Part shown: in pieces, positions 35,737 through 48,930 of the stretch
Layout of the letters: each line of letters starts with the position of its first letter
Numbering within the stretch: position 1 is the first letter of the stretch
IMG/VR virus record: IMGVR_UViG_3300031525_000009
Location: 1 to 64,000 of that record
Length of the DNA: 64,000 nucleotides
Strand: one strand, 5' to 3'
Source: a virus
The notes under the pieces: model-generated
Told to the model about the DNA's origin: nothing
Seen by the model: only the letters and a program-made list of their open reading frames with translations
Databases searched by the model: none
Made by a program: the position numbers and the translations under genes

Positions 35737-35915
35737 CAAAAGATGAAATTGCCATTAGCGCTATTTGCGACGCAGCCAATGAGGTGCGCGAGCTACTCGC
35801 AGGAGTAGACGAGGGGAAAATCCCTATCCGCAGATATTTAGGTGCGTTGGTTAGGCAGCTAGAGAACGTTGCGGTGGATTTGGAGGACCGGTGCAAAGAG
35901 TGGTCTGGATCGTGA
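35733..35915 (+). CDS. Small helical protein (60 aa)
   Basis: ATG 35733 overlaps the J-domain stop. Helical throughout (IAISAICDAANEVRELLAGV, then YLGALVRQLENVAVDLEDRC). Could be a partner of the J-domain protein by coupling. No family is recognised. Confidence 0.6.
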   Translation: MTKDEIAISAICDAANEVRELLAGVDEGKIPIRRYLGALVRQLENVAVDLEDRCKEWSGS

Positions 35916-36034
35916 ACGAGTTGCGCGCTTTGGTGGCGGACATCCTGCTCATCCTCGTGCTCTCGCTAGTAGGCGGGATATTGGGCGCGGCGATATTCAA
36001 TTTGGGGCGGTATTTTCTTTCTGGTGGGGGATGA
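35912..36034 (+). CDS. Small membrane protein (40 aa)
   Basis: GTG 35912 to TGA 36032-36034, overlapping both neighbours (GTGA, ATGA). Single hydrophobic helix (VADILLILVLSLVGGILGAAIF). Its stop overlaps the DNA polymerase start, so it may act as a translational coupler. Function unknown. Confidence 0.55.
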   Translation: MNELRALVADILLILVLSLVGGILGAAIFNLGRYFLSGGG

Positions 36035-38568
36035 GAAACGCTAACTGCAAGTTGTGCCCCTTGCACGTAGGAGCGCGCACGGTATGTATTCCAGGCGACG
36101 GACCCAAGGATGCGGACATCCTCATTGTGGGCCAGAACCCGGGACAGCAGGAGGATCGACAAGGGCGCCCGTTCATCGGGCCGTCTGGCAAGCTGCTGAA
36201 GTCGCAAGTCGCAAAAGCGGGTCTCGATGCGCTCAAGGTGCGTTACACCAACATCGTGCGTTGCCTCACCCCGAACAACCGCGAGCCAACCGCAAAAGAG
36301 ATCAAAGCCTGCAAGCCGTACCTGGATGCCGAAATCAGGCTCATTGCCCCGAAATACGTCGTCCCGGTCGGTGCGCCTGCGACCAAGGCCGTCGCTAAGG
36401 CCAAGATTACGATCGCGCATGGGCAGATGATCGAGAAGGACGGGCGCATCGTCTGCCCAACGTATCACCCGGCCGCGACGTTCCGCGACCCCTCGAAGCT
36501 GCAAGTCATCCAGCAGGACCTAGCGCGCCTCCAGCGGCAGATCGACGGCACCCTGGGGGAGACCCAGGACGCGTTCAAATACCGCGTGGTGACGTCCAGG
36601 GAGGACCTGAGAGCATTCTGGAAAGCATTCGAGGGGGCGGACCTATGCGCCTACGATACCGAGACCAATGGCCTATTCCTGAAAAAGCCCGATTTCGTGA
36701 TCCGCTGCATCGCGTTCGCCCTGCCCGAATGCTCCTGGGTCATCCCGCTGGAGATGCCCGGCAGCTTCTACCAAGGAGCCCCCTGTGCACAAAGCGCACT
36801 GTTCCGCGTTATCGCCCGCAAAGCCGAAGGCAAGTGGGTGTCCACATTCCATGGCAAGTACGATAGCGGTGCGATTCGAACCGCTTACGGCGTGTCGCTG
36901 GCCTATCAGTTTGACGCCATGCTCGCGCACTACCTCATTGATGAGAATCAGGACCACGATCTGAAGTATGTTTCTCGTGTCGAGTTGGATTGCCCTGAGT
37001 ACGACTTGCTAAAGGAGTTGAAGCTCAGCGACAAACCAGAATGGTTGGAACTGATGCAGGACCCGGCCAACCGCGAGAAGTATTGGATGTACAACGGACG
37101 CGATGCGTGGAACACGCTGCACCTCGCGCTCAAGTTCGCGCAGAGATTCCAGCGCAACGCCAAACTGCGTAGGCTCTACAACAATCTAGTCATGCCGTCG
37201 TCTTACGCGCTGGAAGCGATCGAGGCGGAGGGGCTGCCTATCGATAAGACACAATATTCACGGATGGAAACGGAAACGCTGTTCAAGAAGAACGCGGCGA
37301 TGCAGACATTGAACGAGGCCGTGGAGGCACTGCGCGAAGCACCCGCGGAAGTGAACTGGAATTCCCCGCAACAAATTGCACAGGTGCTGTTCCAGGATGC
37401 GGGGTTACCTATTCAGGTGCTTACTCCGACTGGAGCACCTTCCACCAGCGAAGCGGCTATCGTCGATCTGAAAGGCAAGCACCCTATCGTTAACGAGCTA
37501 CTGCACTACCGCGAGCTGGACAAGATTCTTGGTACGTACCTCGAAGGCTGGAAGCAATATATTGTCGGCGATCGCCTCTATCTCAGCTACAAACAAACCG
37601 GCACGGTCACCGGTAGATTCAGCAGCCGCTTGCATTCGATCCCCACGGATGGCGACATTCGCTCCATTATCGCTACGGGTGAGGATAGTAAGTGGCAATT
37701 CGTTGCCGCGGATCTGTCGCAAGCCGAGCTACGCATTGCTGCGGAGTTTTCAGGCGACACGACGCTGATTGATATTTATCGTCGCGGGCAGGACGTGCAC
37801 TGGAACACTGTGCTGTTTCTCGTCGGCGCGGGGCATATGCCGGAGTACGCCAAGCAAGCACTGCTCACCGCGGAAGCTTTAGACCCGCACTACGTGAAGC
37901 GGCACGGGCGCACCTTAGCTACTGCGCTAGAGCTACTGCGCATAGCGGGGGTGGATGCTTGCACCAAAATTTGGAAGGAATGGAAGGTAGCGCGCACTAA
38001 CGCTAAAAGAATCTCATTCGGGTATCTTTACGGAATGTACGAGAATACTTTCATGCAAAAAGCGAAGGTTGACTACGATTGGTATTGCACCTACGCTCAA
38101 GCGCACGCATTCCGCACAGGGTTCTTTGAGGTATATTCCGAGTTGGAGCCCTGGCACACTCGCTGCAAGCGCATCGCACACGTAGACGGCTACGTCACGA
38201 ATATGTTCGGCCGCGTGCGTCGCCTGCCGGCCATCCAGAGTAGCGATAAGCTCGCGCGCATGGAGGCAGAGCGTCAAGCCGTCAACGCTCCCGTGCAGGG
38301 CACCATTGGGGATTGGAAAGCGGCTGCGATGGTGGAAATTCACGAGACAATCGATAAGGATCAGTTTAGACTCTGCGGCGAACATCACGATGCCCTCTTG
38401 GGGCTGGTCCGACGAGGCTGCGAGGACGACGTATTGCCACGAGTCAGACGAATCATGGAGCGCCCAAAGCTCCTCAAAACCTTCAAGATCAGAATGGCGG
38501 TGCCTATGGTTACCGATATCAACGTTGGGGCTTGGGGGCGTGGAACTGTCTACAGGGATCCAAAGTGA
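36031..38568 (+). CDS. UDG-DNA polymerase A fusion
   Basis: The protein has 845 aa from ATG 36031; the frame is open further upstream but that part overlaps two genes and the ATGA overlap decides the start. A uracil-DNA glycosylase-like domain at 1-170 has C6, C9, C78, C94 (family 4 Fe-S), GQNPGQQEDRQGRPFIGP (34-51) and HPA (146-148). The usual motif Glu (GEAPG) is Asn here, so activity is uncertain. The 3'-5' exonuclease (about 180-370) has D209, E211, D278, D358. The Pol A domain (about 380-845) has motif A with D561 (ADLSQAELR), motif B R655/K659 (FGYLYG) and motif C HHDAL (D787). Phage SPO1 polymerase has a similar UDG fusion. Confidence 0.93.
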   Translation: MRNANCKLCPLHVGARTVCIPGDGPKDADILIVGQNPGQQEDRQGRPFIGPSGKLLKSQVAKAGLDALKVRYTNIVRCLTPNNREPTAKEIKACKPYLDAEIRLIAPKYVVPVGAPATKAVAKAKITIAHGQMIEKDGRIVCPTYHPAATFRDPSKLQVIQQDLARLQRQIDGTLGETQDAFKYRVVTSREDLRAFWKAFEGADLCAYDTETNGLFLKKPDFVIRCIAFALPECSWVIPLEMPGSFYQGAPCAQSALFRVIARKAEGKWVSTFHGKYDSGAIRTAYGVSLAYQFDAMLAHYLIDENQDHDLKYVSRVELDCPEYDLLKELKLSDKPEWLELMQDPANREKYWMYNGRDAWNTLHLALKFAQRFQRNAKLRRLYNNLVMPSSYALEAIEAEGLPIDKTQYSRMETETLFKKNAAMQTLNEAVEALREAPAEVNWNSPQQIAQVLFQDAGLPIQVLTPTGAPSTSEAAIVDLKGKHPIVNELLHYRELDKILGTYLEGWKQYIVGDRLYLSYKQTGTVTGRFSSRLHSIPTDGDIRSIIATGEDSKWQFVAADLSQAELRIAAEFSGDTTLIDIYRRGQDVHWNTVLFLVGAGHMPEYAKQALLTAEALDPHYVKRHGRTLATALELLRIAGVDACTKIWKEWKVARTNAKRISFGYLYGMYENTFMQKAKVDYDWYCTYAQAHAFRTGFFEVYSELEPWHTRCKRIAHVDGYVTNMFGRVRRLPAIQSSDKLARMEAERQAVNAPVQGTIGDWKAAAMVEIHETIDKDQFRLCGEHHDALLGLVRRGCEDDVLPRVRRIMERPKLLKTFKIRMAVPMVTDINVGAWGRGTVYRDPK

Positions 38569-41995: not shown

Positions 41996-42013
41996 CGCCG
42001 AGCAGAAGTCCCG

Positions 42014-42067
42014 CCCGCGCGCCGAAACGGCCACCCGAAAGGGGCTAACTCGCGGTAGGCGCGCGGG
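42014..42067. repeat. 10-bp GC inverted repeat after the ssDNA-binding protein gene
   Basis: CCCGCGCGCC (42014-42023) and GGCGCGCGGG (42058-42067) are perfect reverse complements 34 nt apart, in the 90-bp gap after the stop codon. Like the repeat after the capsid gene it lacks a U-tract and follows a gene expected to be highly expressed. Confidence 0.5.
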
Positions 42068-42085
42068 GTTTGGGCTAGGAACGAC

Positions 42086-42286
42086 ATGAAACCGCATTAC
42101 TTCGATCAAACAACTGCCGACCCTGACGACATGCAATTGAGCATGGCGAAGCACCAAGGCTATGTGCCCAAGACGTGCTTACTGGGGGGTATAACCGTAA
42201 TGAGTGAAGTAACCTTGGGCAACAACCCGTGTTGGGGGTGTGAAGGCCCTAGGGAGAGATGTGCGGGGAAACCTAAAAAGCCGTGA
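42086..42286 (+). CDS. Small Cys-rich phage protein (66 aa)
   Basis: The C-terminal NNPCWGCEGPRERCAGKPKKP, with three Cys plus C31, resembles a recurring small phage protein with NxPCxGCxGPRxxCxGKP. Probably one zinc site. Its stop overlaps the helicase start (GTGA). Function unknown. Confidence 0.7.
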   Translation: MKPHYFDQTTADPDDMQLSMAKHQGYVPKTCLLGGITVMSEVTLGNNPCWGCEGPRERCAGKPKKP

Positions 42287-45066: not shown

Positions 45067-45499
45067 CTTTTGGACGTATCTCTCTAAGCTCCTCCCGAAA
45101 GAGGGGCATTATTCCCGTATTGAGAGTCACGACACCGCAAGCGGGTTTCCCGATGTGGTCTATACCCTGAACGGCAGCAGCGGCACAATCGAGTTGAAAG
45201 ACGCCAAGCGCCCCGGCGCAAAGCACCCCTTCAAAGGCGAGAGCGGGTTGCGCAAGAGTCAAATTACCTGGATAAACGAGGAACTAGCCGCGAACGGTGA
45301 CCGAATATTTCTAGCGCTCCAATGTGGGGATCGGGTGTACCTGCTGGAAGCCGAACTGTATTACGACGAGCTGCACCGCATGACGGAAGACGATATCAAA
45401 CGTGTTGCTACTGTACACTGGGTGAAAGGCAAGTTGCGCAAAGACGAATTCCCGCCGCTGACCCCGGATATTCGTGATTTGTTGACAGGTACGTTGTGA
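45053..45499 (+). CDS. PD-(D/E)XK (VRR-NUC-like) nuclease, Holliday-junction resolvase candidate
   Basis: The 148-aa protein starts at GTG 45053. An N-terminal helix (FWTYLSKLLP), then RIESHDTASGFPDVVY and GTIELKDAK give the E...PD...(D/E)xK catalytic set. KHPFKGESGLRKSQITWINEEL and IFLALQCGDRVYLL complete the small fold. The length fits stand-alone VRR-NUC or resolvase enzymes. It would cut branched DNA before packaging. Confidence 0.75.
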   Translation: MSEASFWTYLSKLLPKEGHYSRIESHDTASGFPDVVYTLNGSSGTIELKDAKRPGAKHPFKGESGLRKSQITWINEELAANGDRIFLALQCGDRVYLLEAELYYDELHRMTEDDIKRVATVHWVKGKLRKDEFPPLTPDIRDLLTGTL

Positions 45500-45762
45500 C
45501 CCTACGCATTCCTAAAACTGTGTTCGTGCCGTTCGAGTTCGGCCCAGGGAAGCGCCCTCCGGGCATCAAGCGGGATGATCTGCCGCGATTCAAAGAGCCC
45601 GAGGAAGCGGCGCAGTACCTGTTGGATAACCCCACCGTAAGTTGGCGCGATGGTAAGCCGGTGTTCCTGCAGTGGCAGGAGCGCCATGAACCAGAGTTGA
45701 TTAAAGAATTCCTACGCGGGGTAGGGACGCCTGAATGGTTAACGTTGGGGGTAAAACTCTAA
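45496..45762 (+). CDS. Last rightward gene, hypothetical (88 aa)
   Basis: The GTG start overlaps the nuclease stop. Contains KTVFVPFEFGPGKRPPGIKRDDLPRF, then a helix and WRDGKPVFLQWQERHEPELIKEFLRG. Its stop codon is immediately followed by the first strand of the tRNA-like structure. No family is recognised. Confidence 0.65.
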   Translation: MTLRIPKTVFVPFEFGPGKRPPGIKRDDLPRFKEPEEAAQYLLDNPTVSWRDGKPVFLQWQERHEPELIKEFLRGVGTPEWLTLGVKL

Positions 45763-45855
45763 GTTAGGCGGGTTCGAGTCCCGCACCTGCGCCGGAGCAG
45801 GTAAACGTGACTGGTGGTCACACGAGGGTTTTGACAGTACCCTATCCGGACTAAC
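45763..45855 (+). ncRNA. tRNA-like four-arm RNA, possible circularly permuted tRNA-Val(GAC)
   Basis: Four hairpins occupy the whole convergent gap inside a closing pair GTTAG (45763-45767)/CTAAC (45851-45855). In order: a canonical T-arm GCGGG-TTCGAGT-CCCGC (45768-45784); ACCTGC-GCCGGA-GCAGGT (45785-45802), readable as 3' then 5' acceptor strands; CGTG-11 nt-CACG (45806-45824) with A14, GG and A21 like a D-arm; and GGGT(T)-TTGACAG-(T)ACCC (45826-45842), an anticodon-like arm with U33, GAC and A37. This is tRNA order starting at the T-arm. Weak points: a 6-bp acceptor, AAA instead of TA after it, a T-T mismatch, and no encoded CCA. The alternative is a bidirectional terminator. Confidence 0.35.
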
Positions 45856-46675
45856 CCCCCATCTGTGAGGGCTGACTCGCGCCCATCTGTGTCAAGCCCT
45901 GCGTAGCGGGAGCTAGCCCCTGTCCCGTCTGCAACGCGTGCGCAGCGAGTCTCACAACCGGGTGCTGCATCGCATGGGGGGAGGCGTGCAACGTGGCGGC
46001 GGCAGATGAAGCATCTTTGTTCTTCAGATGCGCCAACGCATTGCGTATTGCGGTGACCGCTTGCGGGGGAAGCTGAGGCACTGCGCCCCCTTGCGCATAA
46101 TCGCCCTGCTGCGGGGTCGCTGGCTGCGTAGGCCCGGGGTACGTGCCGTCCACCACCGCGTTTTCGTTCGCTTCGCGAGCTGCCTGTAGCTCACGACGCG
46201 GGCGGTCGATCATGTAATCTTTGAGCGCCGCGAGTGCATCTTTGACCGCACCGCTCATCCCGGGCGAGCCCGGAGAAGACGAGTTTACTTCACCCCCCGC
46301 ATCGTAGTGACCCCCGCGGCGTAACGCGGGCATCCGCATTCGTGCCCCGCCCATGTGCTGGTCAATGTTGTGGAGCGTGCCGGCGAGCGGCACATGCGGG
46401 GGGCGCATCGGGTTGCCCACCCCCATCGGGTGCCCGAGGTGCGGCATCGATGAGCGCATGGACATGGGGTTGCCTTCGAGCTGTGCGAGGGGGGAAATTG
46501 CCCCGCCCGCAGCGTGATGGTGTTGCATAGCGTGACTCAGTAGGGCAGAGCCCTTGTCGGCTTGATTAAATTCGATTGCGACCGCTTGCGACGGGGCATG
46601 CTTGAGCCCCGTAGGGTGCCAGCCGTGGGCGATGGCTGCCATTAGCCGAGCCTGCGGTTCGCTGGAGGAGGGCAC
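45851..46675 (-). CDS. Virion-cassette protein with GG-motifs (274 aa)
   Basis: GTG 46675 overlaps the stop of the gene upstream (TAGTG), which decides the start. An N-terminal helical part (RLMAAIAHGWHPTGLKH, IEFNQADKG) and a Met/His/Pro-rich middle lead to GGHYDAGGEV, YAQGGAVPQ and a helical end with repeated HLKNKDASSAAATLHASPHAMQ. Last gene of the leftward late unit, next to internal virion proteins. Function unknown. Confidence 0.7.
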   Translation of the reverse strand: MPSSSEPQARLMAAIAHGWHPTGLKHAPSQAVAIEFNQADKGSALLSHAMQHHHAAGGAISPLAQLEGNPMSMRSSMPHLGHPMGVGNPMRPPHVPLAGTLHNIDQHMGGARMRMPALRRGGHYDAGGEVNSSSPGSPGMSGAVKDALAALKDYMIDRPRRELQAAREANENAVVDGTYPGPTQPATPQQGDYAQGGAVPQLPPQAVTAIRNALAHLKNKDASSAAATLHASPHAMQHPVVRLAAHALQTGQGLAPATQGLTQMGASQPSQMGG

Positions 46676-48930
46676 TACTGCGCCCCCGATTGTTGCAACT
46701 GCTGCTGCAGTTGGCTCAAGCGCTGGGCTGCTTGCTGTTGATCCCACGATTGAATCGCCTGCTCGACGGGGGAAGAGCTGCTCACGCTGCCTCCGCCTGC
46801 GTACCCGCGGTCCTGTCGATCGAGTGCGGCCCGGATTCGATCCAGCGGGCTGCCAGTTGCCCCGCCCGGGCCTTCGAGGCGCAGATCGCCGGCCACCTTG
46901 CGCAGTCGATCGGCTGCGAGCTTGTTCCGAAATGCGAGCTGTGCCGGGGACGGTCCCGGAGATGGGGCGGTCGCGAGTTCCGGCGCGCCGGAAGGAGTCC
47001 TAACGGTCGGCTGATTGGGTGACTTCGCCGGGGGGCGGTAAGTGACCGCAGGAGCCCCTATGGGCGGGCGTTGTGTACCCCCCTGCTCTAAAACGTTCTC
47101 GAAGGGAATTCCCTCGAGGGAACTTCCTGAAGGGGCAGAGGGGGTTGCGGGGGGCGCGATCGAGAAGTCTCCCCACTTCTGTGGCCCTTGAAAGTCCACG
47201 GGCTCTGCGGGCCGCTCTGGAGGCGTCGCGAGCTGCTGACGCAGTGCGGCAAGACGCGCGGCTCCGGGGTGTTGGAGTCCGGCAGCTTGCACGTCCGGCG
47301 TAAGCCCTAGATTTTCCAAGGTATTAGCGGTTGAAGCCCCTCCACCCGCATTCACCATGGAGGGGGACGGAAGGCGTAGCGGGGGTCCAGGGAGCGGCGA
47401 AGAGGGCGCCAAGTTCCAACCGGTCGGCATTGGCTCTCCTCGCCGGAAGTAGCTGAGTGCAGGGTTCGTATCCGCGGCCGCGGCGAGATCAGGGTTTCCC
47501 CGAGTCCGCAACTGTTCGAGCTTCGCGCGGATCAACGGACCTGCGACCGCGCCCGCCATCCCGCCGACGCCTGGGATGCCGGCAGCGTGCCCCGCTAATT
47601 CACCCGCCCCTGCGCCCAGCGCAGCCCCGCTGAAATCGAATCCTGCCGCAGCTCCCGGGGGCAGGCCGTTCGCGACGTGCCCCACGATCGCAGCGTTACC
47701 GGTCAGTAGCCCGGGGTTCTTCTCAGCCGTGCGCGCGTAGACAGAGGGGTCAAAATGCTCTCCTCGCAGTGCGCCTTGCGCTTGGTAGTTCTTCGCCATG
47801 ACGGTGCGGGCCGCTTTCCAGTCATCCAAACTAACATCACTATCCTCAGCCTCACCCAGCCGCCTGCCCGCGAATTCTTCGTACGCGTTGGCAAGGCTAT
47901 GGTACGCATCTCCTAGAGCCCCCTTGTCGGGGTCATCCGATTTCCAATGCGCCTTGGCCCGCTCGCGCGCTTCGCGGATGTTGGCGAACAGCTCATCCCG
48001 CGTGAAGTCTGGTTTCGCCAGCATCGTCTCTTGCAGCGCGTCCACATCGGGGGAGCGGGGCAGTTGGCTAGTTTGATCGGGGAGGTTACCCAAATCCGTC
48101 TGCAGCTCGGGGTCTTGGGTTAGTTTCTCCGGGATAGCCTCCTCCGCGGCGCGGTACACCTTACCCGGACCTACTTTGATGGCGTTCTGTAACGCAGCCA
48201 CGCTAGGAGGTTGCCCGGGGACCATCCCTGCATCCTTGCTGATGAGCACATCCGTGATAGCTTGATTGCCCGGGGCGCGCAAATCCATCCGCGTCTTGAG
48301 CCCGGTGTACCCGACTGCTTTTCCGACTTCATCAGATGAACGCGCAATTTCCTGGGCCGTGACTTGCTCCGGCGTGAGTGCGCGTGCCCCAGGGATTCCC
48401 ACCAACGCTGCGATGTCTGGAACGGCTTCCTCAGTCGCTTCGAGCGCCCCACGCGCAGCGGGGGGAAGATTACCTACCGCTTTATCGATAGGCGCAGCAA
48501 CCGCTTCAGCGCCTTTCTGCGCAAGCCCCATGCCTTGCACCACGGGGTCATTCGACGGGGGTAGCTCAGTAGCTTGGTTCACCGCACCCTGCACTTTCTG
48601 CACAGTGTCGGGTCCACCAACTAGTCCCGCAATGCCGCTGGCCGCTTTTCCCCCAAGGCGCACGGCGCCTTGCACGGCGCGCTCAGCCATCCCAACGCCC
48701 GGCAAATCTCCAAGAGCCCGCATCACATCCGAGAAATTCTCATCGTGACGCAGAGTCTGTCTACCATCGTCGCCCGTCACTGCATAGAAGCCTGTCGGGG
48801 CTTTTCCCCCGGGCGGTAAGGGATCGTAATCTTTCGGTGGACCTGCAGGTAGCGCACTCCCCACAGGCTTTGCAGACGCCAAATCAAACCCCGCACCGAC
48901 GGGTTGTGCGCTAGCCAAATCGAAGGCCAT
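46675..48930 (-). CDS. Large internal virion/ejection protein (751 aa)
   Basis: It begins with a repeated FDLASAQPVGAGFDLASAKPVG phrase, typical of phage ejection proteins. Ala/Gly-rich helical regions (about 80-180 and 390-460, AAAGFDFSGAALGAGAGELAG), a charged central part (ANIREARERAKAHWKSDD), Pro-rich linkers, and a C-terminal YAGGGSV motif and Gln-rich helix follow. It should be stored in the capsid and injected with DNA. By-eye assignment from composition, motif and synteny. Confidence 0.75.
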   Translation of the reverse strand: MAFDLASAQPVGAGFDLASAKPVGSALPAGPPKDYDPLPPGGKAPTGFYAVTGDDGRQTLRHDENFSDVMRALGDLPGVGMAERAVQGAVRLGGKAASGIAGLVGGPDTVQKVQGAVNQATELPPSNDPVVQGMGLAQKGAEAVAAPIDKAVGNLPPAARGALEATEEAVPDIAALVGIPGARALTPEQVTAQEIARSSDEVGKAVGYTGLKTRMDLRAPGNQAITDVLISKDAGMVPGQPPSVAALQNAIKVGPGKVYRAAEEAIPEKLTQDPELQTDLGNLPDQTSQLPRSPDVDALQETMLAKPDFTRDELFANIREARERAKAHWKSDDPDKGALGDAYHSLANAYEEFAGRRLGEAEDSDVSLDDWKAARTVMAKNYQAQGALRGEHFDPSVYARTAEKNPGLLTGNAAIVGHVANGLPPGAAAGFDFSGAALGAGAGELAGHAAGIPGVGGMAGAVAGPLIRAKLEQLRTRGNPDLAAAADTNPALSYFRRGEPMPTGWNLAPSSPLPGPPLRLPSPSMVNAGGGASTANTLENLGLTPDVQAAGLQHPGAARLAALRQQLATPPERPAEPVDFQGPQKWGDFSIAPPATPSAPSGSSLEGIPFENVLEQGGTQRPPIGAPAVTYRPPAKSPNQPTVRTPSGAPELATAPSPGPSPAQLAFRNKLAADRLRKVAGDLRLEGPGGATGSPLDRIRAALDRQDRGYAGGGSVSSSSPVEQAIQSWDQQQAAQRLSQLQQQLQQSGAQ

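Follow-up and report, generated by a model that had tools for sequence, protein, structure and literature searches.

A permuted tRNA-like RNA element with a pseudoknot in mostly unrelated phages

Can the short gap between two phage genes encode a tRNA whose arms are written in permuted order, or an RNA that only resembles one? The question is raised by the window analyzed here (positions 1 to 64,000 of the 64.5-kb IMG/VR phage record IMGVR_UViG_3300031525_000009), which encodes a terminase, a capsid protein, and a family A DNA polymerase. Its last rightward gene (45496 to 45762, + strand; 88 amino acids; stop codon TAA at 45760 to 45762) is small, of unknown function, and has homologs that are 56 to 76% identical in related phages. 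An 88-nt gap separates it from a converging gene (45851 to 46747, − strand; 298 amino acids), also of unknown function and with homologs in relatives, and this gap holds four hairpins in a row. A preliminary description had read these as T-arm, acceptor, D-arm, and anticodon arm, in that order, and had proposed a circularly permuted tRNA-Val(GAC) opened in the variable loop or, failing that, a tRNA mimic. Every part of that layout is present, and the region from 45768 to 45849 encodes a structured RNA of ∼82 nt that is one of at least seven members of a family.

Hairpins in a convergent gap

The T-arm (GCGGG-TTCGAGT-CCCGC; 45768 to 45784, + strand) has the TTCGAGT loop noted previously and is abutted by a 6-bp acceptor-like hairpin (ACCTGC-GCCGGA-GCAGGT; 45785 to 45802, +). 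What had been taken for a 6-nt acceptor linker is instead the 5′ strand of a pseudoknot (CCGGA; 45792 to 45796, +, within the acceptor-like loop), whose partner, TCCGG (45845 to 45849, +), pairs with it over 5 bp in the window and 6 to 7 bp in the other members. The D-like arm (GTGAC-TGGTG-GTCAC; 45807 to 45821, +) has a 5-nt loop carrying GG, like tRNA D-loops; the GG loop of the preliminary description is retained, but its 4-bp CGTG/CACG stem gives way to a 5-bp stem, which covariation backs. The fourth hairpin, delimited in the seven-member alignment, is anticodon-arm-like (AGGGT-TTTGACAGT-ACCCT; 45825 to 45843, +), and the right end of the element is where the converging gene has its stop codon. 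The GTTAG/CTAAC pair that was thought to enclose the whole is also present, but it adjoins or overlaps the stop codons of both flanking genes, and the relatives do not share it.

Tests confined to the window left the nature of the element unsettled. A linear tRNA or tmRNA gene was rejected, as neither ARAGORN nor Rfam, at normal thresholds, matched one in the window, and the folding energy is unremarkable (z = −1.3) and cannot serve as proof. When circularized by rotation, the segment is called as tRNA-Val(GAC) by ARAGORN at default settings, and among the three clusters found in a scan of all rotations of the window, the element has by far the most supporting rotations. However, 39 dinucleotide shuffles of the window gave 137 rotated-tRNA clusters, nine of them in the same score band (3.5 clusters per 64 kb and 0.23 at the score band of the element), and the rotated scores of the seven members reach only 95 to 108% of the threshold. 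The rotated call is thus marginal, too permissive to be taken as proof, and by itself possibly accidental. An intrinsic terminator (a G+C-rich hairpin followed by a U-run), which the preliminary description had named as the simple alternative, does not fit, as there is neither a U-run nor a plus-strand terminator match at the element. A TTGACA stretch was considered as a promoter and rejected because it has no promoter match.

The decisive evidence that the element is real is its independent recognition by a model of its relatives. A covariance model built from six relatives, with the window excluded and the pseudoknot omitted, matched positions 45763 to 45852 with 84.3 bits (E = 1.2e-23, E-values being rough by the tool's own statement) and had no second match in the 64-kb window at an E-value of 10.

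A covarying family of at least seven members

Relatives were found by pattern scans. When viral contigs were scanned for the anticodon-like hairpin, L028 and L035 were obtained, each with the whole layout, and two scans with loop letters set and stems mostly free gave L059, L060, L061, and L067, the last from a scan that left the anticodon-like loop unspecified. A later scan without any T-arm letters returned the same six members and otherwise only chance matches among the matches listed, so that the near-identical T-arm (GYGGG-TTCGART-CCCRC) belongs to the family rather than to the search. Broader variant scans gave no further members among the matches listed; exact-pattern scans undercount a family, and the number of members is therefore given as at least seven. 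All relatives are metagenome-derived viral contigs. In 84,980 prokaryote genomes, a pattern fitting most members had five matches, none of them true; each was considered a tRNA T-arm, or a stretch of chance sequence, fused to unrelated letters. Among named phages and plasmids, blastn returned T-arm fragments or short chance matches only. The family appears to be undescribed in the openly accessible literature searched, and an earlier description is possible.

Covariation demonstrates the secondary structure. Every cell of the seven-member alignment (100%) is paired in the T-arm, acceptor-like helix, and D-like arm, 15 of 26 pairs are changed on both sides (versus 8.6 expected), and the observed covariation was reached by none of 500 shuffles. 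Such changes occur in every helix, and pairing fails when strands are slid by one to three columns. The search patterns partly set the loop letters but left free the pseudoknot and those stem positions that covary. The T-arm shows C-G/U-A covariation at its second pair and has GYGGGTTCGARTCCCRC in all seven members; the acceptor-like hairpin has three pairs changed on both sides, with its loop-side U-A and G-C pairs invariant; and the D-like arm has four such pairs and the loop UGGUR. The anticodon-like loop is nearly fixed (UUUGACAG in six of seven members and UUUGAAAG in L067). The U33-GAC-A37 motif of the preliminary description is kept in six members, but one reads GAA and the loop has 9 to 10 nt. 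A coding explanation of the element was rejected, as the frame that is open through L035 and L067 has stops in L059 and L060 (judged by eye).

In all seven members, the acceptor-like loop is complementary to a stretch starting 1 to 2 nt after the anticodon-like stem, with differing sequences (loop/tail): CCGGA/TCCGG in the window, TCCCGGA/TCCGGGA in L028, TAACCGA/TCGGTTA in L035, TTGCGGT/GCCGCAA in L059, TGGGATC/GATCCTA in L060, GCCCGG/CCGGGC in L061, and TGAGTC/GACTCA in L067. The true assignment of loops to tails is uniquely the best of all 5,040, beating the 5,039 re-pairings, and its score was never reached by 20,000 shuffled sets. At the level of sequence, an H-type pseudoknot between the acceptor-like loop and the 3′ tail is shown to be conserved across the family. 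Covariation in relatives, which the preliminary description had asked for, is therefore found in every helix and in the pseudoknot.

The seven phages are mostly unrelated, most share no genes with the window, and the positions of their elements are unrelated. Many genes are shared only between the window and the phage of L061 (most ∼30 to 50% identical in protein), and even there the elements lie at different, nonhomologous places. In the closest relatives of the window phage, found by their helicase, the element is absent at the same gene junction, where other small genes are located. Each of the seven genomes has one strong match, and no conserved protein partner is encoded near the element across them. 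The neighbors are recombination genes in the phage of L060, an SbcC-like gene downstream in that of L067 (by eye), ParB-like and integrase genes in that of L035, and, downstream in that of L028, an antiterminator-like gene (a weak match) and one resembling a terminase gene (by eye). In the phage of L059, the element heads a short rightward open reading frame within a leftward tail operon, which is the position of an accessory gene. The copy of L067 (L082:5035-5125, + strand) overlaps the C-terminal portion of a reading frame, the phrog_3657 match of which ends at residue 322, before the element. Such differing neighbors in mostly unrelated phages are the behavior of an accessory gene. The phage of L035 appears to be a provirus: it encodes an integrase, and T-arm copies are found at the two ends of its contig. 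A reading of the element as an attachment site was rejected, since the element is separate from those copies.

Comparison with known tRNA-like RNAs

Measured against tRNA, the element has a proper T-arm (5-bp stem and TTCRANN loop) and keeps the U33-like and A37-like positions. Elsewhere it departs from the tRNA plan. In place of a 7-bp acceptor stem with a free end and CCA, there are 6 bp and a loop that pairs with the tail in every member, and no CCA or discriminator pattern is conserved in the alignment. In place of a D-arm with 3 to 4 bp, a loop of 8 to 11 nt, and a U8-A14 pair, there are a 5-bp stem and the UGGUR loop, with no conserved U at the U8-equivalent position in the alignment. 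Finally, the anticodon-like loop has 9 to 10 nt by Watson-Crick pairs in all seven members rather than 7 nt on a 5-bp stem. The short D-like loop (5 nt), long anticodon-like loop, lack of CCA, and blocked acceptor end make a decoding permuted tRNA-Val unlikely, and the element probably mimics a tRNA without functioning as one.

Circularly permuted tRNA genes are found in red and green algae and in archaea (PMC3978253, PMC3218864). They likewise place the 3′ half before the 5′ half and connect the two, at the acceptor end, through a short intervening sequence. Unlike the phage element, they yield full cloverleaf tRNAs, the algal ones maturing through a circular intermediate, whereas the element has a conserved pseudoknot strand as its intervening sequence and lacks several tRNA landmarks. 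Permuted (two-piece) tmRNA also encodes the T-arm and 3′ acceptor strand first, but the element has no tag-peptide module, and its T-arm alone matches RF00023 (11.7 bits). The tRNA-like structures of plant viruses of the turnip yellow mosaic virus (TYMV) type lie at the genome 3′ end and have an acceptor pseudoknot and a free, chargeable CCA. They too join tRNA mimicry with a pseudoknot at the acceptor end; compared by general description, they differ in this free CCA, in their genomic position, and in order and topology. To our knowledge, permuted tRNA-like RNAs in bacteria are mainly Y RNAs and two-piece tmRNA.

Among known RNAs, the element comes closest to the permuted tRNA-like module of bacterial Y RNAs (YrlA; RF02553). 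Both have the T-arm, closed acceptor-like hairpin, and D-arm in the same order, with the T-loop and the GG of the D-loop in common, the shape of the D-arm being unusual in the phage element. In contrast to YrlA, the element has an additional anticodon-like hairpin on its 3′ side, an acceptor-loop pseudoknot, and a 5-nt D-like loop. The long Ro60-binding basal stem is missing, the flanking duplex being no stronger than in shuffles in any of the seven members, and no Ro60/TROVE gene is present in the seven phage records; a host copy is possible. The Rfam gathering cutoff for YrlA (69 bits) is not approached by the window or L060 (18.3 and 14.7 bits), and there is no YrlA match at the gathering score in the window. 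For these reasons, the element is not filed as a Y RNA, but it may work as a portion of one does.

A T-arm/D-loop scan also gave five phage loci with an outer stem: L094:5678-5799 (+), L096:7401-7522 (−), L124:1384-1505 (+), L142:1767-1888 (+), and L152:1756-1877 (−). All have a permuted T-arm, a closed acceptor hairpin, and a canonical D-arm, the outer stem being weakest in L142, and all five records encode Ro60/TROVE. Except in L124, a clear anticodon-arm-like hairpin lies in front (Asn GTT, Gln CTG, Gly GCC, and Cys GCA). Circularizing the whole segments is confounded by outer stems and nearby ordinary tRNAs; rotated by hand, four loci reach 110 to 119% of the ARAGORN threshold, like real tRNAs. 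None matches YrlA at the Rfam cutoff, and the five are most likely phage Y RNAs missed by Rfam gathering thresholds. They support the idea that phages make recurrent use of the permuted module. The same module of T-arm, closed acceptor hairpin, and D-arm was seen in four phage records without a TROVE match (L143:12809-12930 [+], L188:10471-10592 [−], L091:3933-4054 [+], and L144:5939-6060 [−]), three of which have tRNA genes and one of which (L143) also has a GOLLD RNA.

Possible roles of the element

We tentatively favor a trans-acting tRNA mimic, encoded by an accessory phage gene, as the most likely explanation, because the element occurs once per genome in mostly unrelated phages, has no conserved protein partner nearby, is absent from the same junction in the closest relatives of the window phage, and occupies the position of an accessory gene in the phage of L059. 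The GG of the D-like loop would dock with the T-loop the way it does at the elbow of a tRNA, and the RNA would present this elbow and the T/acceptor stack, while its acceptor end, sealed by the pseudoknot, could carry neither CCA nor an amino acid. Spread horizontally and made with early or accessory transcripts, such an RNA would occupy in trans a host factor that recognizes tRNAs, candidates being a tRNA-cleaving defense nuclease, a tRNA-processing or -modifying enzyme, or PNPase, and the near-fixed UUUGANAG hairpin may give specificity. As only 1 to 2 nt separate the anticodon-like stem from the pseudoknot strand, it is doubtful on geometric grounds that the RNA forms a true L with an anticodon arm positioned as in tRNA. 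In bacterial YrlA, the tRNA-like module is a substrate for modification by tRNA enzymes and also binds PNPase (PMC8394870); a module of this kind can therefore act as a mimic. Phage tRNAs that answer tRNA-cutting defenses are established, according to two reports (PMC10264068, PMC11555353). That the family represents a novel type of phage RNA acting in trans, a pseudoknot-sealed mimic of the permuted elbow, encoded by an accessory gene disseminated among unrelated phages, that counters a tRNA-targeting defense or another tRNA-binding host factor, is conceivable but on balance unlikely.

The main rival to a trans-acting mimic, to which we give a lower probability, is a role in cis in transcript processing. 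The elbow and pseudoknot would then punctuate polycistronic messages, separating or stabilizing them by RNase P cleavage or by blocking exonucleases, or would gate the next gene. RNase P has the T/acceptor stack as its core substrate, the element lies between genes, and the window copy closes a rightward operon. A codirectional gene begins shortly downstream (∼5 to 80 nt) in five of the seven phages (L035, L059, L060, L061, and L028), which a cis-acting leader would also fit and which counts against a trans-acting mimic. In the window, however, the downstream gene converges on the element, leaving no gene to gate, the copy of L067 overlaps the C-terminal reading frame of a gene, and the neighboring genes differ in every phage.

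A YrlA-type module that has no Ro-binding stem and recruits PNPase or host Ro60, altering RNA decay during infection, is improbable. YrlA is the best whole-element Rfam match, and the family model matches most of the Y-RNA-like loci of other phages (∼20 to 29 bits) through the permuted T-arm, acceptor hairpin, and D-loop; against this stand scores far below the YrlA cutoff, the missing Ro60 gene, the absence from YrlA of both pseudoknot and anticodon-like hairpin, and flanks without a basal stem (z between −1 and +1.1, versus −1.5 to −5.6 in the five Y-RNA-like loci). Much less probable is a working permuted tRNA-Val(GAC), for which the acceptor loop would be the site of processing and the variable loop that of closure. 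The rotated ARAGORN call and the U33-GAC-A37 motif speak for it, but the pseudoknot holds the acceptor loop, both loops have the wrong length, CCA is lacking, rotated scores are marginal, one member reads GAA, the near-fixed loop is unlike that of a set of tRNAs, and we know of no ligation chemistry for such an RNA in the phage. The tRNA-Val reading of the preliminary description is thus not supported, while its permuted arm order and its suggestion of a mimic are upheld. Ordinary hairpins of a convergent gap, such as a bidirectional terminator, with a chance likeness to tRNA, have a negligible probability. Location, unexceptional energy, and rotated calls of the same score in shuffles would all be compatible with them, but the match of the model built without the window and the covarying pseudoknot refute chance, and the other copies lie outside convergent gaps, with neither a U-run nor a plus-strand terminator match at the window copy.

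The family shows that phages put the permuted tRNA fold to another use, one with a pseudoknot-closed acceptor end, and that it is present in unrelated phages. The element offers a compact, testable tRNA mimic, the partner of which may be a host defense or tRNA-processing factor.

Other features were noted in the window and in related phages. In L004 (5024 to 5040) and L012 (5561 to 5577), from phages related to that of the window, a 17-nt hairpin, CAGGGGTTTTGACAGTACCCC, identical to part of the window element, lies downstream of an SSB-like gene without any T-arm and may be a remnant, an independent motif, or chance. In the window, a single frame (35869 to 38568, +) joins a uracil-DNA-glycosylase superfamily domain to a 3′-5′ exonuclease/family A DNA polymerase. 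The intergenic region after its SSB-like gene (41996 to 42090, +) contains a long G+C-rich inverted repeat (CCCGCGCGCC...GGCGCGCGGGG), and a similar stretch also follows the SSB-like gene in L004 and L012.
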